Positions 10,649 through 25,386 of a stretch of DNA of 64,000 nt are shown in pieces (the stretch's first letter is position 1; each line of letters starts with the position of its first letter). The translations under genes and the position numbers were made by a program. Source of the DNA: Chloroflexota bacterium (lineage in GTDB: Bacteria; Chloroflexota; Anaerolineae; Aggregatilineales; Ch27); contig JAIOAT010000002.1 in NCBI GenBank assembly GCA_019873685.1, forward strand, positions 62,001-126,000, read 5' to 3'. Under the pieces are notes generated by a model. It worked only from the letters and a program-made list of their open reading frames with translations, made no database searches and had not been told where the DNA came from.

Positions 10649-11095
10649 TTATTCGCCGCCGTCCGGGCGAAGGGTTACGGTGCCTGCCCGCGACTGGGCG
10701 CGACGGCGCACGCGTAACGCCAGTTCCGCGCGGCGCAGTTCCTGCATGATGATCGCTGCTTCATCCGGGGGCGGGCCTTTGCGCATCATCTCTTGCGCCG
10801 TGCGCCGGGCTTCCTCCGCCTTCTCCAGGTCGACTTCCTCGGCATGTTCGGCCATATCAGCCAGCACCACGACCTTGTCCGGGCGGATCTCGACGATGCC
10901 GCCGTAGACTGCCAGCACGTGCTCGGTGCCATGGGCCTTGATACGCAGTTCGCCGATGTCGAGGGTGGTCAACAGGGGGGTATGGCGCGGCAGGACGCCC
11001 AGGACGCCTTCCTTGCCCGGCAGGATGATCATGTCGGCGGCTTCCTCTTCGAAAACCTTCTTTTCCTGCGTCACAACCTCGATATGGATGGGCAT
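10649..11095 (-). CDS. atpC: F1Fo ATP synthase epsilon subunit
   Basis: Epsilon links the F1 rotor to the c-ring and inhibits ATP hydrolysis. The 148-residue protein has the N-terminal beta-sandwich (ADMIILPGKEGVLGVLPRHTPLLT) and a C-terminal helical pair rich in Arg and Glu. It is the last of the four F1 genes, 12 bases after atpD, with a GAGGAC ribosome-binding site. Confidence 0.95.
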   Translation of the reverse strand: MPIHIEVVTQEKKVFEEEAADMIILPGKEGVLGVLPRHTPLLTTLDIGELRIKAHGTEHVLAVYGGIVEIRPDKVVVLADMAEHAEEVDLEKAEEARRTAQEMMRKGPPPDEAAIIMQELRRAELALRVRRRAQSRAGTVTLRPDGGE

Positions 11096-11107
11096 GCCGT
11101 CCTCACT

Positions 11108-12550
<1,443 letters not shown>

Positions 12551-12563
12551 TCAGTTCCGGACG

Positions 12564-13541
12564 CTAGCGGGCCGCCGCAGCCGTTTTCAAATAGGCTTCT
12601 TGCATATCGCGTACCACGGCTTGCGCCTGTTCGCGGAGAGCTTCCACACCGCCGACGATGTCCAGAATTTCGCTAGTAATGGCCAGCTGGCGCGCTTTGT
12701 TGAAGGTCAGTTGCAGGTCGGCCGCCAGCGCTTCGGCATTCTCCGAGGCGTTGCGCATGGCAATCATACGGGCAGAATGCTCGCTGGCCTGGCTTTCCAG
12801 GATAGCCTGGTAGATCTGGAGTTGGATGAACCGCGGCAGCACTTCGTCCAGAATCTCTTGCGCTGACGGTTCGTAAATATACTCGCGTCCTTCGGTGGTC
12901 ACGGTTGGCTCGCGCTTGATGTACGTGTTCAGCACCGGGTTATCCGTCTGGAACGGGCGTAACGGCAACAGGTTGACCACCACCGGCTCCTGGCTAAGGG
13001 TGTTTTTGAAGTCGGTGAAGGCAATGAACACCTGGTCAGCGCGTCCCTCGAGAAACTCGTCGATGACCGTCCTGGCGATGGGGATGACCTCGGTGATCGT
13101 CAGTTCCGCTGGAAGGTGGCTGAACTGGGCGATGACCGGCTGGCCCATGCGGAGCAGGGCGTCGCGCCCCTTGCGCCCGACGCTAATCCATTGGACTGAG
13201 CAATTCTCCTGGCACAGGTTGCGGGCAAAGGTCGTCGCTACGCGGACGATGTTGGTATTGTAGGCCCCGGCCAGGCCGCGATCGCCGGAAATCAGCAGCA
13301 TGCAAATCCGGGTGGGGTTGGGCCGCACTTCCAGCAGGGGATGCAATGCCCGCCCCGCGCCACCCTGCGAGGCCACGTTGACCAGCACTTCCCAGGCTTT
13401 CTGGGCATAAGCGCGGCTGGCCATGGCCTGTTGCTGGGCTTTGCGGGCGCGAGAGGCTGAGACGGCTTCCAGCGCTCGCGTGACCTGCCCGATATTCCTG
13501 ACGCTCTTGATGCGTTTGCGGATCTCGCGTACGTTTGGCAT
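12564..13541 (-). CDS. atpG: F1Fo ATP synthase gamma subunit
   Basis: Gamma is the central rotor shaft of F1. The N-terminal helix REIRKRIKSVRNIGQVTRALE and the C-terminal helix with ARMIAMRNASENA are the diagnostic conserved segments. The length of 325 residues is slightly above the 285-295 of most bacteria, as in several phyla with an insertion in the globular part. It starts 12 bases after atpA. Confidence 0.95.
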   Translation of the reverse strand: MPNVREIRKRIKSVRNIGQVTRALEAVSASRARKAQQQAMASRAYAQKAWEVLVNVASQGGAGRALHPLLEVRPNPTRICMLLISGDRGLAGAYNTNIVRVATTFARNLCQENCSVQWISVGRKGRDALLRMGQPVIAQFSHLPAELTITEVIPIARTVIDEFLEGRADQVFIAFTDFKNTLSQEPVVVNLLPLRPFQTDNPVLNTYIKREPTVTTEGREYIYEPSAQEILDEVLPRFIQLQIYQAILESQASEHSARMIAMRNASENAEALAADLQLTFNKARQLAITSEILDIVGGVEALREQAQAVVRDMQEAYLKTAAAAR

Positions 13542-13553
13542 ATCCGCGCCCCT

Positions 13554-15059
13554 TTAGGCCCAGGTGGCGTTGAAAGTCTGAATGGCTTCCTTGAGCCGGG
13601 CCTCAATCTCCGGCGTCAGGCGCAGCTCGGTCTCGATGCCGTTCACCACGTCCTGGAACTGCGCCCGCAGGAAGCGGATGAACCCTTCCTCCCATTCCTT
13701 GACCCGCGCCACCTCGATCTGGTCAAGGTAGCCGCGCGTCCCGGCATAGATCAGCACGACCTGGTCAACTAGCGGGGTGGGCTGGTACTGGGGCTGCTTC
13801 AGAATCTCGGTCAGGCGGCGACCACGCTCAAGCTGGCGCTGGGTGTCTTTGTCCAGATCGGAGCCAAACTGGGCGAACGCCGCCAGGGCGCGGAAGTTGG
13901 CCATGTCGATGCGCAGGCCGCCAGCGACCTGGCGCATGGCCCGCACCTGGGCATCACCGCCCACGCGGCTGACGCTGATGCCGGTGTTCATGGCCGGGCG
14001 GATACCGGCGTAGAACAGGTCGCTTTCCAGGTAAATCTGGCCATCTGTGATGGAAATCACGTTGGTGGGGATGTAGGCGGAAATGTCGCCGAGCAGCGTC
14101 TCGATGATCGGCAACGCGGTCAGGCTCCCGCCGCCACGTTCCTTGCTCAGCTGTGCAGCGCGTTCCAGCAGTCGGCTGTGCAGGTAGAACACGTCGCCGG
14201 GGTAGGCTTCGCGGCCCGGTGGACGGCGCAGCAGGAGCGAGACCTGACGGTAGGCCCAGGCGTGCTTGGAGAGATCGTCGTACACCACCAGAGCATCCTG
14301 GCCGTTTTCCATGAAGTACTCACCCATGGCGCAGCCGGAGTAGGGCGCCAGGTACTGCAATGCCGCCGGATCCGAGGCGGAGGCCACGACGATAGTCGTG
14401 TAGTCCATCGCGCCGTACTTCTCCAGCGTCGCCATCGTGTTGGCGATCTCGCCGCGTCGCTTGCCGATAGCGACGTAGATGCAGTACAGGTTCTTGTCCC
14501 GCTGGTTGATAATCGTGTCCAGGGCGAGGGCAGTCTTGCCTGTCTGGCGGTCACCGATAATCAGTTCGCGCTGCCCGCGCCCGATCGGGGTGAGCGCGTC
14601 GATCACGCGGACACCCGTCTGGACAGGGCGGAAGACGTTCTGGCGCTCGATGACGCCGGGGGCGATGCGCTCGATGTTGTAGAATTCGGTCGCTTCAATT
14701 GGCCCCTTACCGTCGATCGGGTTGCCCAGGGCATCGACCACGCGCCCGACCAGGGCGGGGCCAACGGGCACCGAGGCGATCCGGCCGGTGGCCCGCACCT
14801 CGTCGCCTTCCTTGATGTCGGCGTATTCGCCCATGATGATCACGCCGACCGACTCCGCTTCCAGGTTGAAAGCGATGCCCGGCACGCCGTTGCTGAAGCT
14901 GACCAGTTCGTTAGCCCGGACATTCGGCAAGCCGGAGACACGGGCGATGCCATCACCAACTTCCAGCACGTGACCGACTTCAACGGTTTCAACTTCCGGT
15001 TTATACTCTTCGATCTGGGCCAGCAACGACCTGGTGATGTCGCTGGTAAATTCCGTCAT
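13554..15059 (-). CDS. atpA: F1Fo ATP synthase alpha subunit
   Basis: The non-catalytic nucleotide-binding F1 subunit, 501 residues. Walker [10 protein letters not shown] and the [21 protein letters not shown] segment are intact. The ATG at 15059 follows GGGAGGAAG at the right distance; a TTG seven codons upstream is in frame but would contain that site. It is first of atpA-atpG-atpD-atpC. Unusually, atpB, atpE, atpF and atpH are not upstream: proC is. Confidence 0.97.
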
Positions 15060-15284
15060 GCAATCTTCCTCCCGCAATCAGATGGGCTGTTCCAAGAGCG
15101 CCAGCCCTATACTGTCAGCACAAAAGACTCTTTCCGCATAGACCATTCTGGCTACCGAGCCGTGTGGCCGGATACTTTCCCAGCGGGCGTATCCGAGTGA
15201 CCTGTTTGGGAAGTCTGTCACTAAGTCTACACTATAGGAGTGGTTATGTCCACTTCTGGCCGGTCAATGCAAATCACCTGTGCA

Positions 15285-16154
15285 TTACCGGTTATCGCCC
15301 AGATCTTCCGGATCGCGGCCACCCAGCCGGGAGACCTTGCCGCCGCTGCCCAGCGCCACGCTGCGCCGGTAGGCGGCCCAGATCGCCCGCGAGATCACGG
15401 TGCGCAGGCCGCCTTTTTCCAGATGGTAGAGGGCTTCCGCGGAAGTCCCACCGGGGCTGGTGACCTGATTGCGCATGTGCGCCGGATGTTCGTTGGTCGC
15501 CAGCGCAAACTCGACCGAGCCGCGCACAGTCTGGTAGACCAGTTTGGCCGCTACCTGGCGGGAAAAGCCCAGGTGCACTCCGGCGTCGATCATCGCTTCC
15601 ATAAAGAGGAACACATATGCCGGGCCGGTGCCGCTCAGCGCTGTCGCCATGTCCAGGTAGTCCTCGTGATCGACGTAGACCTCCTCGCCCAGGGCAGAGA
15701 GGATAGCCCGCGCCTGGGCGATCTGTGGCTCCGGCACCTCATTCGTGGCGGTCCAGACGGTCACGCCCTGCCTGATCCGCGCTGGCGTGTTGGGCATGGC
15801 CCTGACCACGCGCCGGATGCCCAGCCCGCTCATGATCTGGCGCACCGGGACGCCAGCCAGGATGCTCAGGACGAGCGCCCCCGGCGGCACCTGACCCAGC
15901 AATTCCGCGGCGACTTCCTCAAACACCTGCGGTTTGATCGCCAGGATTAACAGGTCGGCTTCACGCGCTGCTTCGACGTTGCTGGTGGTGATACGAATAC
16001 CGTAGCGGGCGGCAAGTTCTTCGATCCGCTCGACTCGGGGATCGGCGGCCAGAATCTGGTCTGGCCTGAGCATCTCCCCGTAGAGCAGCCCATGAATGAT
16101 GGCTTCGCCCATGGTTCCGGCGCCGATGAAGGCGATGGTGAAATCTTCAAACAC
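15285..16154 (-). CDS. proC: pyrroline-5-carboxylate reductase
   Basis: ProC reduces pyrroline-5-carboxylate to proline with NAD(P)H in the cytoplasm. The 289-residue protein has the Rossmann motif FIGAGTMGEAI at residues 9-19, the RAMPNTPARIRQG segment, and the C-terminal dimerisation signature GTGPAYVFLFMEAMIDAGV with TSPGGTSAEALYHLE. The 225-base gap to atpA has a TATAGT hexamer and an AGTGAC/GTCACT inverted repeat near 15197-15223. Confidence 0.95.
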   Translation of the reverse strand: MFEDFTIAFIGAGTMGEAIIHGLLYGEMLRPDQILAADPRVERIEELAARYGIRITTSNVEAAREADLLILAIKPQVFEEVAAELLGQVPPGALVLSILAGVPVRQIMSGLGIRRVVRAMPNTPARIRQGVTVWTATNEVPEPQIAQARAILSALGEEVYVDHEDYLDMATALSGTGPAYVFLFMEAMIDAGVHLGFSRQVAAKLVYQTVRGSVEFALATNEHPAHMRNQVTSPGGTSAEALYHLEKGGLRTVISRAIWAAYRRSVALGSGGKVSRLGGRDPEDLGDNR

Positions 16155-16197: not shown

Positions 16198-17346
16198 CTA
16201 CATGATATCCGGAAAAGTGGCGTCCCAGGCTGCGCCGAAGGCCGCCAGTCGGTCGGGTTGGATAGTGACGCCGGAGCCAATCCCGCGTGGCACATCGATC
16301 GTGCTGTCCGGGTTCAACACAAAGGGCGGCTCGGTGATGTCCGGCGCATAGTAGCGGTTAGTTGCGGAGAGATCGCTGGGCAGGGTCACTCCCGGCAGAC
16401 TGGCCACCGCAAGGTTTTGCGCCCGGCCAACGCCTGTCTCCAACATCCCGCCAACCCACAGCGGCACACCTTCGTCGTAGCATAGCTTGTGGATGGCGAC
16501 GGCTTCGCTCAGGCCGCCCACACGCGGCGGCTTGAGGTTGATGATCCGGCAGGCGCCCAGTTGCAGCGCCAGCCGCACATCATTGGCGCACAGGATGCTC
16601 TCGTCCAGGCAGATCGGGGTTGCCAGCCGTGGCTGCAGTTTACTGTGCTCATAGATGTCGTCGTGGCTGAGCGGCTGTTCCAGCATCAGTAGGTTGAAGC
16701 GGTCAAGCTTGGCCAGGTGGTCGGCGTCATCAAGCGTGTAGGCGCTGTTGGCGTCCAGCATCAGCATGATGTCCGGGTAGGCAGCGCGTACTGCTGCAGC
16801 CAGTTCGACATCCCAGCCGGGCTTGATCTTGAGCTTGATGCGCCGATAGCCTTCCTTCAGGCGCTTTTCGATAATCGCCAGCGTGTCATCGATGGTTGGC
16901 TGGATGCCGATACTGACGCCAACGGTTACGCGGTCACGGCGAGGAGCCTGCAATGGTTGTGCCGACCAGAGCGTATCCGCCAGCGATTGGCCGGTTGCCT
17001 GCGCCCACAGGTCCCAGAGGGCGCTATCCAGCGCCGCCTTGGTTAACGGGTGGCCGCGTACGCTGGCCATGAGGCGCGTTCCATCCGATGGGTGGTGCAG
17101 GGTCTTCCCCACCAGCGCCGGGATCAGGAACTTGGTCAGGATGTGGTAGGCGGTGCCAACGGTTTCGTAGCAGTAGCCCGGTTCCGCCGCGGCGGTGCAT
17201 TCTCCCCAGGCTACCAGGTCGCCAGTGCGGACCTCCGCCAGCAGTACGGGGCGTACGGCTTCCAGGCCGAAACTGGTGCGCAATGGCTCCACCAGCGGCA
17301 TCACCACCCGGTGCAGGCGAATCTGGTCAATAGTAATGGTGGTCAA
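16198..17346 (-). CDS. N-acylamino acid racemase / o-succinylbenzoate synthase (enolase superfamily)
   Basis: A 382-residue muconate-lactonizing-subgroup enzyme. Catalytic lysines are in RIKLKIKPGWD (K171/K173) and NLKPPRVGG (K272). Metal ligands are D198 (MLDAN), E223 (LEQP) and D248 (LDES). Members of this family either dehydrate SHCHC to o-succinylbenzoate in menaquinone synthesis or racemise N-succinyl amino acids, and many do both, so sequence alone does not decide. No other men genes are near. A GNAT acyltransferase gene ends 23 bases upstream of its start, an arrangement known from N-succinyl amino acid racemases, and I therefore favour that role. Confidence 0.88.
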   Translation of the reverse strand: MTTITIDQIRLHRVVMPLVEPLRTSFGLEAVRPVLLAEVRTGDLVAWGECTAAAEPGYCYETVGTAYHILTKFLIPALVGKTLHHPSDGTRLMASVRGHPLTKAALDSALWDLWAQATGQSLADTLWSAQPLQAPRRDRVTVGVSIGIQPTIDDTLAIIEKRLKEGYRRIKLKIKPGWDVELAAAVRAAYPDIMLMLDANSAYTLDDADHLAKLDRFNLLMLEQPLSHDDIYEHSKLQPRLATPICLDESILCANDVRLALQLGACRIINLKPPRVGGLSEAVAIHKLCYDEGVPLWVGGMLETGVGRAQNLAVASLPGVTLPSDLSATNRYYAPDITEPPFVLNPDSTIDVPRGIGSGVTIQPDRLAAFGAAWDATFPDIM

Positions 17347-17369
17347 GCGAAAGCCTCCTTACAACGGGG

Positions 17370-18272
17370 TTAATTCTGGTTGAAGCTACGGTCAAACTTG
17401 CGCAGCGCCTCCTGGTGACTGCACACGTAGAAGCTGCGCAGAAGTCCCTTGTAGGTCTCGTGCACGAAATCCGTCAGGATGAATCCCTGGCTCATGACCG
17501 TGATGAGCACGGCGCGGATATGCTCCCGCCACGCCTGCGCCAGCCCGGTGTCAGCCTGTTCGATCAGACTCAGGCGGGTGGGAATTTCGATCAGACCCAG
17601 CGCGCCCGGTGGCTGGAGGAAGTCATCCCCCGGCACGGGGAACAGGCGGTCATCAAACGTGGTGGGATTCAAAATGCGCGTCCCCCCATCCAGGTACTGG
17701 GACAGGGTGAGCGGTGCACGGCCTTTCCTGATGCGCTGCAGCGCGCGCTCGCTGGTCAGCCACCAATCCGCCTGGACGCGATCCCTGGAGGCGGGCACGC
17801 CCGCTGCCTGTGGCGGGACCGGGTAGTAGTCCGGGTAGTACTGGTCGATCACCGCGCCCAGCTTACGCACGGTGATGTGGGCGTACTCGCCGTGCAGGGG
17901 ATCGAAAACCCAGGTCATCAGGCGGATGCCGCGCCGGGCGGCAAAGTGATATTCGGCCAGCTTCAGATGGTAACCGATGCCCTGGTGACGGTAGGCCTCC
18001 TGCACGACCACCAGTTCCGAATTGAGCTTCAGGTTCGCCATGGCCGGCCGGTTTTCATCCGCAGAGGCGGCGCCCAGGGTGGCTACGGCGCCGCCGACGA
18101 GCTGATCCCCGTCCCAGGCGCCAAGCACCAGCCCGCCATTGGATGCAATGGAAAGCAGCCAGTGGGGCTGGATGACATACTCCGGGCTGTCTACCCAGAC
18201 CTGCCGCTGCACTTCCGCCAGGGCGACCATCTCCGGCCAGGTGGTCAGTGGTTGAATTTGAATGTTGGTCAT
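17370..18272 (-). CDS. GNAT acyltransferase, probable partner of the N-acylamino acid racemase
   Basis: A 300-residue protein with an N-terminal GNAT fold. Motif A is VVQEAYRHQGIGYHLKLAE near residues 88-106, containing the acyl-CoA loop RHQGIG. A C-terminal half of about 130 residues has no motif I recognise but includes the YDG/RILNP-type segment of the COG3375 group. In Geobacillus a GNAT encoded beside the racemase succinylates D-amino acids. By analogy this enzyme would use succinyl-CoA and a D-amino acid, which is inference. It starts 4 bases after the epimerase gene ends, so the genes are co-transcribed. Confidence 0.8.
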   Translation of the reverse strand: MTNIQIQPLTTWPEMVALAEVQRQVWVDSPEYVIQPHWLLSIASNGGLVLGAWDGDQLVGGAVATLGAASADENRPAMANLKLNSELVVVQEAYRHQGIGYHLKLAEYHFAARRGIRLMTWVFDPLHGEYAHITVRKLGAVIDQYYPDYYPVPPQAAGVPASRDRVQADWWLTSERALQRIRKGRAPLTLSQYLDGGTRILNPTTFDDRLFPVPGDDFLQPPGALGLIEIPTRLSLIEQADTGLAQAWREHIRAVLITVMSQGFILTDFVHETYKGLLRSFYVCSHQEALRKFDRSFNQN

Positions 18273-18276
18273 GATG

Positions 18277-19233
18277 CTAAATCCCTCGTGGCCGCCGGCG
18301 GCGGAACAGAAACCGGAACAACTCCAGCCCGTACCGCCGTCCCGGCATATACGTTAAGAGTGTATCCTCAAAGCGAACTGGGCGAATGCCAAACAGGTCT
18401 CCGATGGTATTCAGAGGCGCTGTCCGGTGGCCGGCCAGAATGTCGAACCACTGGTGGGTAGCCGGCCAGCGCGGGAAGATGCGGCGGGCCACCCGCGTAA
18501 GAAAACGTAACGTGTACGGTGGCAACTGTACGATCATACGCGGGGTGTTGGTCACACGCATGATCGTGCGGACTACTTCGTTGAACGTGATGTACTCTGG
18601 CCCGCCGATCTCCAGCACACGATCGACAGTATCAAGATTGTCCATACTGCCCAGCAGGACGGCGACCAGGTCACGGATGTAGAGCGGGTGCAGCAGGTTC
18701 TCGCCTTCGCCTGGTTGCAGGAAGATCGCGGGGTTAGTCCACAGCAACATAGCGATGTTGTTGGCAAAGCGGTCCTGCTCCCCAAACAGGATGCCGCTGC
18801 GAATGATGGTGTAGGGAACGCCGCTGGATGCTACCAGGCCCTCCAGTTGCCCTTTGATGCGCAGCAACGGATACGCCGAGGTGGAGGCCGCGCCCAGGTG
18901 GCTCATCACCATAAGGCGGCCTATCCGTGCACGGCGAGCCGCCTCAAGCAGGACGGCCGTGCCGCCCAGATCGACCCGCTCGAGATCGCGGGGCCGCCCC
19001 CACCACTGGGCACTGGCCAGGTGAAAGACGGTGTGCACCCCGTTCAAGGCCTCGCTCAGGGCGTCTGGATCGTAGAGGCTGCCGTGGAAAGCTTCTACCG
19101 CCAGGCCGGGCCAGGGCAGTCGAACGCTGCCCGGCGGCGCCTGGATCAGGACGCGAACCGGCCACCCGGCCCCAACCAGCGCAGGAACCAGATGCCGTCC
19201 GATGAATCCGGTTGAGCCTGTAACGAGAATCAT
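18277..19233 (-). CDS. NAD-dependent epimerase / NmrA-like SDR protein
   Basis: An atypical short-chain dehydrogenase of 318 residues. The NAD(P) motif TGSTGFIGRHL is at the N-terminus. A YPLLRIKGQLE segment stands where SDRs carry YxxxK, and here the tyrosine and lysine are spaced YPLLRIK, so catalysis may be lost. The C-terminal part resembles NDUFA9/NmrA-type proteins that act on quinone or carotenoid substrates. I chose the ATG at 19233 because a strong promoter places the transcript start at or next to it; an ATG three codons upstream lies inside the -10 box. It is the first gene of a unit with the GNAT and racemase. Confidence 0.8.
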   Translation of the reverse strand: MILVTGSTGFIGRHLVPALVGAGWPVRVLIQAPPGSVRLPWPGLAVEAFHGSLYDPDALSEALNGVHTVFHLASAQWWGRPRDLERVDLGGTAVLLEAARRARIGRLMVMSHLGAASTSAYPLLRIKGQLEGLVASSGVPYTIIRSGILFGEQDRFANNIAMLLWTNPAIFLQPGEGENLLHPLYIRDLVAVLLGSMDNLDTVDRVLEIGGPEYITFNEVVRTIMRVTNTPRMIVQLPPYTLRFLTRVARRIFPRWPATHQWFDILAGHRTAPLNTIGDLFGIRPVRFEDTLLTYMPGRRYGLELFRFLFRRRRPRGI

Positions 19234-19240
19234 GCGGGGC

Positions 19241-19268
19241 ATTATAACACGCGATCTCGGACAGTCAT
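19241..19268 (-). promoter_or_regulatory. strong promoter giving a leaderless epimerase mRNA
   Basis: On the minus strand ATGACT (19268-19263), a 16-base spacer and an extended -10 TGTTATAAT (TATAAT at 19246-19241) are visible. The expected transcript start is about seven bases past the -10 box, at the ATG at 19233. Confidence 0.7.
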
Positions 19269-19572
19269 CGGGTGATTTGGGGCGTGGGGCACGAAAAAGA
19301 AGAGGCCAGGAGGCCGGGAGACCTGGAGGCCAGCAAAGGCTGTCGGGTGTTGGATAGCAGCACTTGGAGTGCAGCGAGTGAGATGGTTCGAGCATGGTGG
19401 CGGCATAAGGACCGCCAGCAGCGGTGGACGCGACGGGGGCGCGAGGCGCGACTCGCGTAACCGATCGGGGTTATATCTTGATGTATAATCTGGACTTCGA
19501 CTCTGGCTTGCATGGCCGGATGGGCCAGAGCCGGGCTTCCGGCGAGACGATTATTGCGGGAGGAAACATCCT
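19269..19572. other. intergenic region between divergent epimerase and fabF
   Basis: About 300 bases without a gene. It holds a GGAGGCC-rich repeat (19302-19335), a small GCACT-TGG-AGTGC hairpin, a CGCGAG/CTCGCG hairpin near 19440-19457, and a TATAAT hexamer at 19484-19489 that probably serves fabF, although its -35 box is poor. A non-coding RNA is possible but nothing identifies one. Confidence 0.5.
19302..19335. repeat. GGAGGCC-rich intergenic repeat, copy 1
   Basis: GGGAGACCTGGAGGCCAGCA (19316-19335) matches 18 of 20 bases of a sequence at 44511-44530. The preceding GAGGCCAGGAGGCCGGGAG (19302-19320) matches 17 of 19 bases at 44521-44539, so the two copies are the same elements in swapped order. 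Confidence 0.65.
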
Positions 19573-23559: not shown

Positions 23560-25386
23560 ATGACCAAGGCGAAGGGATTGACTGCCCTGTGGGGTGTCTT
23601 GCTTCTAGTACTCGGGGCCTGTCAGGCTGCACCGATGCAGTCGTCGGCGCCGGCAAACGATGTTGTCGTTGCAGCAACGCCCGCGACGGTCTTGATCGGT
23701 GCTGGCGGCAGCCCGACATCGACGCCGGTTGTTATCGCTCAGGCTGTTCCGACGTTGCCAGTACCGACGCCGGTGCCAGCGAATGTTCTGGTTCAGCCCA
23801 CGCCACGACCTTCGGTCTCGGCGTTGGAGCGCATTCGCGCCGATGGCGTGCTGCGGGTTGGCGTCCTGTACAACAATGCGCCGATGAGCAGTCTGAACGA
23901 GCGGGGGCAGGTGGTCGGCTATGAGGCCGATCTGGCCCGCGCCATCGCCGAGGACTGGGGAGTAGAAGCCACGTTTTTGCAGGTGACACGCCAGACTGCA
24001 ATCGACATGCTGCTGGCCGGTGAGGTGGATATTCTGATGGCCAGTGTGGTGCATCGCCGTGAGGCGGAAGAAGACCTGGCCTTTTCACATACCTACTTTG
24101 CCAGCGGCCAGATGTTCCTGGTGCGCCAGGATTCCCCGATTCAGGACCTGAGCGGCGTGGTCGGGCAGCGGGTTGGGGTGGTGCAGGGCACAGCCAGCGA
24201 ACGCGCGCTGGGGCGCGCCATGAGCGTTGAGCAGTTCACTGTAACGCCGCGCGTTTACCTGACGCTTGACCAGGCTGTGGGGGCGCTGGGCAGCGGCGAG
24301 ATCGACGCGCTGCTGGCTAACCGGGTTGAACTGCTGATGGTCATGCGCACGGTGCAGGAGGTGCGGCTGTTGCCCGACCCGCTGGAGCCGGAGCCGTATG
24401 CCGTGGCGATGCGCCGCCATGATGATGCGCTGCGCTATCTGGTTGATCGTTCGTTGCAGCGAATCTATGCGGCAGGCAAATTGGACGAAATGCGGCGTAC
24501 CTGGTTCCCCAATGTGACGTTTTCGCTGGAAATCCCGGTATGGGAAGGCGTGAACGATGGCACACGCGGGCTGAACGACTTCGATACAGCGCTGGTGGTG
24601 CCGGAATCTTCGGTGATCGACCGGTTGCTGGCGGGTGAGCCGTTGCGCGTGGCCGGGGTGGCTAACGAGGATGCCCGGCTTGGCGGCCTGAACCTGAAGC
24701 TGGATACCTTCTACCGGGCGCTGGTGACTGAAATGGCGGCGCGGTGGGGAGTGCAGGTGAGCCTGGTGCCCGATTCAGCAGCCAATGCCGCTGAACTGGT
24801 GGCCAGCGGTCAGGCCGATCTGGGCGTCGGGGTCAGCCCGAACTGGACCGGGCCGTTTGAAGTCGCTTACACGGCCCCGCTGATCCGGCACGGCGACCGG
24901 ATGATGCGGCTGGTGAACAGCCCGATTGAGGGCTATGCCGACCTGCGCGGCGGGCGCTGGGTGGGCATTTTCGCCAGCGAGCCGGGGACGGCTGACCGGG
25001 TCAACGAGCTGGCGGAAAGCGTCCGGACAGCGGTCAACATCTTCACGATCATCAATGATGAGGACGCTGTCTATTCGCTAACGGTTGACAAGAATGTGGA
25101 TGTCGTCTTTGGCGATAGCCTGCGCCTGATCCCGCAGGTCGAAGCGAACCCGACGCTGGTCGAACTGACTGATCGCTGGTACAGCGTGGAGTACTATGCG
25201 CTGGCCGTGCCACGCCGCGACCCGGACTTCTGGGCGCTGGTTGAAGTCACGCTACAGGCCATGGCCGCTGATGGCACATTTGCCGCCCTCTGGGAGCAGC
25301 ATATGGCGATCGGCGATCCGATCAGCTTCGAGCAATGGCCGGGTGACGCTGACCAGTTTCGGGGTGTACGGATCAGCGGTGGGTAG
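23560..25386 (+). CDS. lipoprotein with two tandem family-3 solute-binding domains
   Basis: A 608-residue protein. Residues 1-20 are a lipoprotein signal with the box VLGAC. A Thr/Pro/Val-rich linker follows to about 85. The first SBP_bac_3 domain runs about 87-325 (begins ALERIRADGVLRVGVLYNN, with the GYEADLARAIA signature). The second, more diverged, runs about 345-590. Such domains bind amino acids for ABC importers or act as sensor modules. No permease, ATPase or kinase gene is adjacent, so its partner is unknown. The fused pair might be a bivalent receptor or a lytic-transglycosylase-like relic, but no catalytic domain is visible. Confidence 0.88.
   Translation: MTKAKGLTALWGVLLLVLGACQAAPMQSSAPANDVVVAATPATVLIGAGGSPTSTPVVIAQAVPTLPVPTPVPANVLVQPTPRPSVSALERIRADGVLRVGVLYNNAPMSSLNERGQVVGYEADLARAIAEDWGVEATFLQVTRQTAIDMLLAGEVDILMASVVHRREAEEDLAFSHTYFASGQMFLVRQDSPIQDLSGVVGQRVGVVQGTASERALGRAMSVEQFTVTPRVYLTLDQAVGALGSGEIDALLANRVELLMVMRTVQEVRLLPDPLEPEPYAVAMRRHDDALRYLVDRSLQRIYAAGKLDEMRRTWFPNVTFSLEIPVWEGVNDGTRGLNDFDTALVVPESSVIDRLLAGEPLRVAGVANEDARLGGLNLKLDTFYRALVTEMAARWGVQVSLVPDSAANAAELVASGQADLGVGVSPNWTGPFEVAYTAPLIRHGDRMMRLVNSPIEGYADLRGGRWVGIFASEPGTADRVNELAESVRTAVNIFTIINDEDAVYSLTVDKNVDVVFGDSLRLIPQVEANPTLVELTDRWYSVEYYALAVPRRDPDFWALVEVTLQAMAADGTFAALWEQHMAIGDPISFEQWPGDADQFRGVRISGG

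Follow-up and report, generated by a model that had tools for sequence, protein, structure and literature searches.

The described system closest to the locus studied here is an operon of Geobacillus kaustophilus, which reportedly joins an N-succinylamino acid racemase/o-succinylbenzoate synthase (NSAR/OSBS) with a GNAT and an M20 enzyme and is said to turn D-amino acids into L-amino acids through N-succinyl intermediates. The Geobacillus desuccinylase is of the carboxypeptidase G2 type. An excerpt of PMC8142540 lists kinetics of GkNSAR/OSBS with an N-succinyl substrate. Which activity of promiscuous OSBS/NSAR enzymes has been selected is a matter of debate, and an excerpt of PMC4215206 recounts that the Amycolatopsis enzyme, first named a racemase, was reassigned to OSBS afterwards. 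Among the titles and abstract openings of the openly licensed literature, we found no study of a GNAT-racemase pair in Chloroflexota.

Here we describe such a pair in a window of 64,000 nucleotides (the whole stretch of DNA that was analysed) from a Chloroflexota bacterium of the order Aggregatilineales. A first-pass annotation had noted an enolase-superfamily enzyme encoded 23 bases after a GNAT and had suggested an N-succinyl route from D- to L-amino acids. We consider it rather probable that the two genes form an N-acylamino acid racemisation module, most likely one that salvages D-amino acids.

The GNAT-racemase pair and its neighbours

The features of the locus are as follows.

18277..19395, minus strand: atypical SDR (NAD(P)-binding epimerase/NmrA-like; PF13460/PF01370/PF05368), gene 1 of the presumed operon
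17370..18272, minus strand: GNAT N-acyltransferase (300 aa, ATG start; PF00583), gene 2 of the presumed operon
17354..17360, minus strand: AAGGAGG ribosome-binding site, 7 nt 5' of the racemase TTG, read directly
16198..17346, minus strand: putative enolase-superfamily N-acyl(succinyl)amino acid racemase (382 aa, TTG start; NCBIfam name o-succinylbenzoate synthase, MenC type TIGR01928)
15285..16154, minus strand: ProC, pyrroline-5-carboxylate reductase (TIGR00112, 268.9 bits against a cut-off of 196.75), gene 4 of the presumed operon
10649..15077, minus strand: F-type ATP synthase genes (alpha, gamma, beta, epsilon; from Pfam and synteny), downstream, part of a conserved neighbourhood and outside the pathway

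Both open reading frames of the pair and the 23 bases between them are exactly as first described; the gap is 4 bases between the SDR stop and the GNAT start, and 43 between racemase and ProC. The first-pass annotation was right about the pair and overlooked the larger unit, SDR-GNAT-racemase-ProC, which we presume to be a four-gene operon. The fabF and fabH genes lie divergently upstream of this unit, and the ATP synthase genes follow downstream on the same strand. The SDR reading frame probably extends too far at the 5' end, with its MILVTG motif beginning at amino acid 55, about position 19233. Just upstream of this likely true start we observed a promoter-like sequence (19241-19268; ATGACT-16-TATAAT, with a TG before the second hexamer, 10/12), and four such sites were found in the region against 1.4 expected. 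Elsewhere in the window, positions 23560-25386 encode a 608-aa family-3 solute-binding protein (SBP_bac_3) for which Pfam reports one stretch and which, judging from both length and sequence, could contain two binding domains in tandem.

The racemase carries the N- and C-terminal MR_MLE domains (PF13378/PF02746) and scored 314.1 bits against TIGR01928 (cut-off 200.65) and 108.7 bits against the DgcA profile. Its best matches in the PDB are N-acylamino acid racemases, among them 2zc8, 1sja and 1r0m (E 8.4e-95 to 1.1e-84, nearly full length), which we take to come from Thermus, Amycolatopsis and Deinococcus. All catalytic residues, which the first reading had reported to be complete, are indeed present: the KxK lysines K171 and K173, D198, E223, D248 and K272 are each identical in 87-88 of 88 aligned rows, the single exception being a gap. 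We also considered R275, which matches the second-shell arginine R266 of the Amycolatopsis enzyme, as a marker of NSAR activity. The arginine is present in 88 of 88 rows and therefore does not separate NSAR from OSBS in the alignment. Its sequence places the enzyme in the NSAR/OSBS subfamily of the enolase superfamily, with putative N-succinylamino acid racemase activity. No other TIGR01928 match in its genome exceeds the cut-off; the one remaining MR_MLE protein that passes the Pfam cut-off is a separate DgcA-like enzyme (C1:195067; 195.7 bits, below the cut-off of 400).

The GNAT is a marginal match to PF00583 (22.0 bits, cut-off 20.7). In its AlphaFold model (pLDDT 90.4), residues 2-184 form a GNAT fold (Z about 15) and are followed by about 115 more residues on the C-terminal side, and fold searches with residues 2-184 returned general GNATs. 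PDB sequence matches were weak, with aminoglycoside acetyltransferases first (phmmer and profile searches; E 0.18 and 0.004), so no substrate can be deduced from them. We take the protein to be COG3375-like. By analogy with Geobacillus, as a GNAT-fold protein encoded together with an NSAR-type enzyme, it is a putative D-amino acid N-succinyltransferase.

Menaquinone genes in the genome and across the order

The automatic name of the racemase implies a step of menaquinone synthesis. We searched for the rest of that pathway in the window's genome (4.12 Mb in 109 contigs, with the window on contig C2), which is 96.75% complete, so that individual genes may have been missed. MenD gave three matches, all below the cut-off, the best of which (66.1 bits against 244.2) we read as an acetolactate synthase ORF. 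At E<=1e-3 there was no match to MenB, nor to MqnA/D of the futalosine route, for which the same search was positive in 4 of 14 control genomes. The picture is the same in two relatives, one of the same genus (G001, 98% complete) and one of the same family (G003, 91% complete): MenB gave no match, no MenD reached the cut-off, and both keep the GNAT-racemase pair. Judged by MenD and MenB, the window racemase thus does not appear to be part of a working menaquinone pathway, and this "MenC" is left without a known menaquinone role here. The first-pass annotation had reported no menaquinone genes close to the pair, which holds for the genome as a whole with MenD below its cut-off and MenB and MqnA/D unmatched; the racemase is therefore not the sole OSBS of a complete menaquinone pathway, the finding that the annotation had named as contrary to its own proposal.

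Across 101 genomes of the order, TIGR01928 was over its cut-off in 69, MenD in 44 and MenB in 45; MenD and MenB were both over the cut-off in 43 and agreed in 98. TIGR01927, the one other MenC type searched, was over the cut-off in none of the 101, so the TIGR01928 enzyme is presumably the OSBS in men-positive genomes. MenB or MenD was over the cut-off in 44 of the 69 TIGR01928-positive genomes. The GNAT-racemase pair occurs in 19 of these 44, including G087 with its GNAT on the other strand, and in 16 the GNAT-linked copy is the sole TIGR01928 copy, which presumably doubles as OSBS there. That racemase orthologues in men-positive genomes presumably also act as OSBS had been overlooked at first pass. 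The remaining 25 TIGR01928-positive genomes, of which 17 are at least 90% complete (rounded figures) and 8 under 90%, have neither MenB nor MenD over the cut-off, and in 19 of them a GNAT lies within 1 kb of the racemase.

These counts bear on the reading in which the racemase would be nothing more than the o-succinylbenzoate synthase (MenC) of the menaquinone pathway and the GNAT beside it unrelated. Its TIGR01928 score is that of an equivalog above the cut-off, and the 44 genomes with MenB or MenD, the missing TIGR01927 and the 16 sole copies all fit such a role. However, the window's genome and both relatives show no MenB match and no MenD over the cut-off (nor, in the window's genome, MqnA/D), and the GNAT stays adjacent in 19 of the 25 TIGR01928-positive genomes without MenB or MenD over the cut-off. 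We consider an ordinary MenC here very unlikely.

The association of the two genes recurs across the order. A GNAT lies within 1 kb at 39 of 85 TIGR01928 loci, upstream in 39 of 39 and on the same strand in 38 of 39, so that the pairing is not due to chance. Both genes are present in 67 of the 101 genomes, the GNAT alone in 8, TIGR01928 alone in 2 and neither in 24 (Fisher p 2.6e-14, not corrected for kinship). The strongest single case for men-independent pairs is the one-contig genome G068, which has no MenD or MenB over the cut-off and carries two GNAT-racemase pairs, one of them within a peptide-uptake/hydrolase cluster.

The GNAT can also persist without a racemase beside it, as is the case at 32 of 76 untruncated named loci (80 of 262 kept, minus 4 with a contig end less than 800 bases downstream) and in 8 of 75 GNAT-positive genomes. 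The 75 are the order genomes, of 101, with matches to the GNAT family alignment; the 8 lack TIGR01928 over the cut-off, and G002, counted among them, shows a 188-bit piece where a contig starts. At some named loci with the GNAT alone, the MenC-like gene is elsewhere in the genome, such as in L139/G062, with two copies on other contigs. Among the 80 of 262 loci kept, the nearest named-record GNAT matches are from two MAGs, one of Aggregatilineales and one of Ardenticatenia, and after these come further Anaerolineae/Chloroflexi MAGs.

A separate observation concerns genus g28 of family f2 (including G062, G084 and G095), in which we found, per genome, up to 19 TIGR01928 proteins among the matches listed and up to 40 MR_MLE-type candidates. 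These numbers amount to an enolase-superfamily expansion like that of the Chloroflexota clade SAR202, for which an excerpt of PMC6946804 reports such expansions, proposed to handle chiral organic matter.

Gene contexts, second GNAT loci and deacylase candidates

We compared the surroundings of 86 racemase loci, comprising 83 loci of the order (up to 7 kb on each side), the window, G001 and G003. They fell into context A (35 loci), context B (19) and two further contexts (12 and 5), with 15 assigned to none. Context A is the SDR-GNAT-racemase-ProC neighbourhood of the window; 18 of its 35 loci are in genomes without MenD over the cut-off, of which one, G077, has MenB. This gene order, SDR-GNAT-(racemase)-ProC with ATP synthase and fabF/fabH close by, is conserved across Anaerolineae: the 80 named GNAT loci (80 of 262) have the SDR cluster in 75, FabF in 59, FabH in 55 and ProC in 52. 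Given how widely context A is conserved, its synteny may be a poor guide to function.

In context B, the racemase lies among family-5 solute-binding proteins (SBP_bac_5), permeases, beta-lactamase-fold hydrolases, M81 (MlrC-like) metallopeptidases and RpiR regulators; the representative of protein cluster 8 in our context maps is an M81 metallopeptidase. Individual context-B clusters add an S9 peptidase and an Amidohydro_3 enzyme, the latter found in two (G068 and G059) and presumably, from its sequence, of the N-acyl-D-amino acid deacylase type. Judged by their families, the context-B enzymes would suit imported peptides with D-residues. The GNAT is adjacent at 2 of the 19 context-B loci and 4-7.6 kb away at 9, and a piece of it lies 1.6 kb off at a contig end in 1 (G058); the context labels omit GNAT copies missed by automatic gene picking, such as the adjacent GNAT of L222. 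One G068 locus (L201, 957-14862) encodes an S9 peptidase, Amidohydro_3, beta-lactamase folds, racemase, GNAT, a peptide-binding protein and a peptidase of the M81 (MlrC-like) cluster.

On a quick tree of the racemases, in which both reference rows (2zc8 and 1sja) are on long branches and the root is unsure, the contexts clustered (11 changes, where shuffling gave 44.9 on average), and context A fell into several separate parts. The menD label changed at least 19 times on this tree, so that gain or loss looks frequent. We looked for an OSBS clade tied to men genes, apart from one tied to the GNAT, and found no clean split, since context A mixes men-positive and men-negative genomes and the menD label changes so often. 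Apart from these, four loci of family f8 (L233-L236, in G032, G047, G037 and G017) hold a GNAT-MenC-like pair that is divergent, sits on a long branch and has a different neighbourhood.

The repeated changes of the menD label, together with the OSBS role that we infer for orthologues in men-positive genomes, would also fit a relic, that is, a former OSBS that has outlived its men pathway and is decaying or is held only by its operon position. However, every catalytic residue is kept, separate racemase copies occur in transporter/hydrolase clusters, and between the window and G001 the dN/dS of the racemase (0.041) is close to that of ProC (0.040) and AtpA (0.026), with 0.034 for the GNAT and 0.097 for the SDR. 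Against G003, where synonymous sites are near saturation, the values were 0.219 for the GNAT, 0.118 for the racemase, 0.111 for ProC, 0.057 for AtpA and 0.128 for the SDR. By dN/dS, neither GNAT nor racemase looks like a relic, and we regard this reading as highly improbable.

Returning to the window's genome and to a racemisation module for D-amino acid salvage, we found three GNATs of the family, on contigs C2 (the window), C14 and C1. The C14 GNAT is flanked by two class-C beta-lactamase-like proteins, with a peptide-binding protein alongside; this cassette (L029, 7429-12970) is homologous to context-B genes of G068 and G053 (644, 335, 287 and 554 bits) and has no MenC-like gene. With the sole TIGR01928 copy of the genome in the window, a D-amino acid route split over the C14 cassette and the window operon is plausible. 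In the C1 locus (L028, 6058-11185), the GNAT lies directly upstream of ABC transporter genes (SBP, permease and ATPase by sequence), which look like an amino acid importer, and also next to an eIF-2B/ribose-bisphosphate-isomerase-like gene.

The lack of an M20 deacylase noted at first pass for the window extends to its whole contig, which gave no PF01546 match. When we searched for an M20 partner beyond it, linkage was seen at 1 of 86 order loci, a context-B cluster of G088 (with six M20 enzymes of the window's genome as queries, and with many loci clipped by contig ends), and the 80 named GNAT loci (80 of 262) gave one weak match of 40.6 bits. Unlinked candidates are at hand among the 12 PF01546 matches of the window's genome, including an M20D amidohydrolase (C5:31663; TIGR01891, 394.5 bits), a carboxypeptidase G2-like protein (C11:20424) and a carbamoylase-like protein (C22:8107). 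An Amidohydro_3 enzyme of the G068 type was also sought there, with a best match of only E=5e-4.

The deacylases bear on a different version of the pathway, in which the N-acylamino acid racemase works with another acyl group or for another purpose: N-acetyl or N-carbamoyl substrates, L-to-D supply, or a proline-like compound coupled to ProC and the SDR. According to an excerpt of PMC7431475, the promiscuity of NSARs extends to N-acetyl-, N-carbamoyl- and N-formyl-amino acids. The Amidohydro_3 enzymes in the context-B clusters of G068 and G059 fit deacylation on the D-side, the window's genome has the carbamoylase-like and M20D candidates, and ProC and the SDR flank the pair in context A. However, the Amidohydro_3 match in the window's genome does not go beyond the value given above, the direction would be set by a deacylase that is itself a candidate only, and the operon may be positional only. 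We therefore regard such a variant as somewhat unlikely.

A proposed D-amino acid route and known systems

In the salvage route that we favour, the GNAT would acylate D-amino acids, most likely with a succinyl group from succinyl-CoA. The metal-dependent racemase, with K171/K173 on one side and K272 on the other, would then take off the alpha-proton and put it back, interconverting N-acyl-D- and N-acyl-L-amino acids. An unlinked deacylase, probably an M20 enzyme of the genome, would release the L-amino acid and so draw the flux in the D-to-L direction. Imported peptides, for instance fragments of peptidoglycan, may be the source of the D-amino acids, and the C14 cassette, without a racemase of its own, could be served by the racemase of the window. 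In men-positive genomes the same enzyme is probably also the OSBS, a job that would be gone in the window's genome. As a possible history, which we put forward tentatively, an ancestral bifunctional OSBS and N-acylamino acid racemase of Anaerolineae, with a linked GNAT, may have been left by repeated loss of menaquinone synthesis as a dedicated racemase, selected solely for D-amino acid salvage. In the window's lineage the route may be split between the C14 cassette for peptide uptake, D-hydrolysis and acylation and the window operon, with ProC and the SDR perhaps channelling its product.

The N-succinyl D-to-L route put forward at first pass thus holds in part. The pair is conserved, its racemase belongs to the NSAR/OSBS subfamily, its genome gave no MenB or MqnA/D match and no MenD over the cut-off, and relatives link the pair to D-peptide-type hydrolases and peptide uptake. 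The three-gene Geobacillus arrangement is not reproduced, since an M20 gene is linked at a single locus, and the proposed succinyl specificity is taken over from the Geobacillus case.

If the module works as proposed, uncultured Chloroflexota gain a testable D-amino acid salvage route. The order offers a natural experiment in the form of matched racemase orthologues, some from men-positive and some from men-negative genomes. The automatic name 'o-succinylbenzoate synthase' would credit a menaquinone step to 25 of the 101 genomes although they have neither MenB nor MenD over the cut-off.

Among known enzymes, the dipeptide epimerases (L-Ala-D/L-Glu) and the N-acetyl-D-Glu racemase DgcA have their superfamily in common with the window racemase. 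The MenC/o-succinylbenzoate synthases of the TIGR01928 type are of the same sequence family, and the window racemase scores above their curated cut-off, whereas its genome lacks MenB and an over-cut-off MenD. The N-acylamino acid racemases 2zc8 and 1sja have the catalytic residues in common with the Chloroflexota racemase, although long branches part them from the order's enzymes on the tree. Compared with the Geobacillus kaustophilus operon, the window has an SDR and ProC in place of a linked M20 gene, and is thus not a full Geobacillus-type operon; without MenB or an over-cut-off MenD, its genome also leaves no OSBS role to the racemase. In both, a GNAT adjoins a racemase of the same subfamily and D-to-L conversion through N-acyl intermediates is proposed, and the pair fits a putative working counterpart of the N-succinylamino acid route in Geobacillus, set in a different operon.
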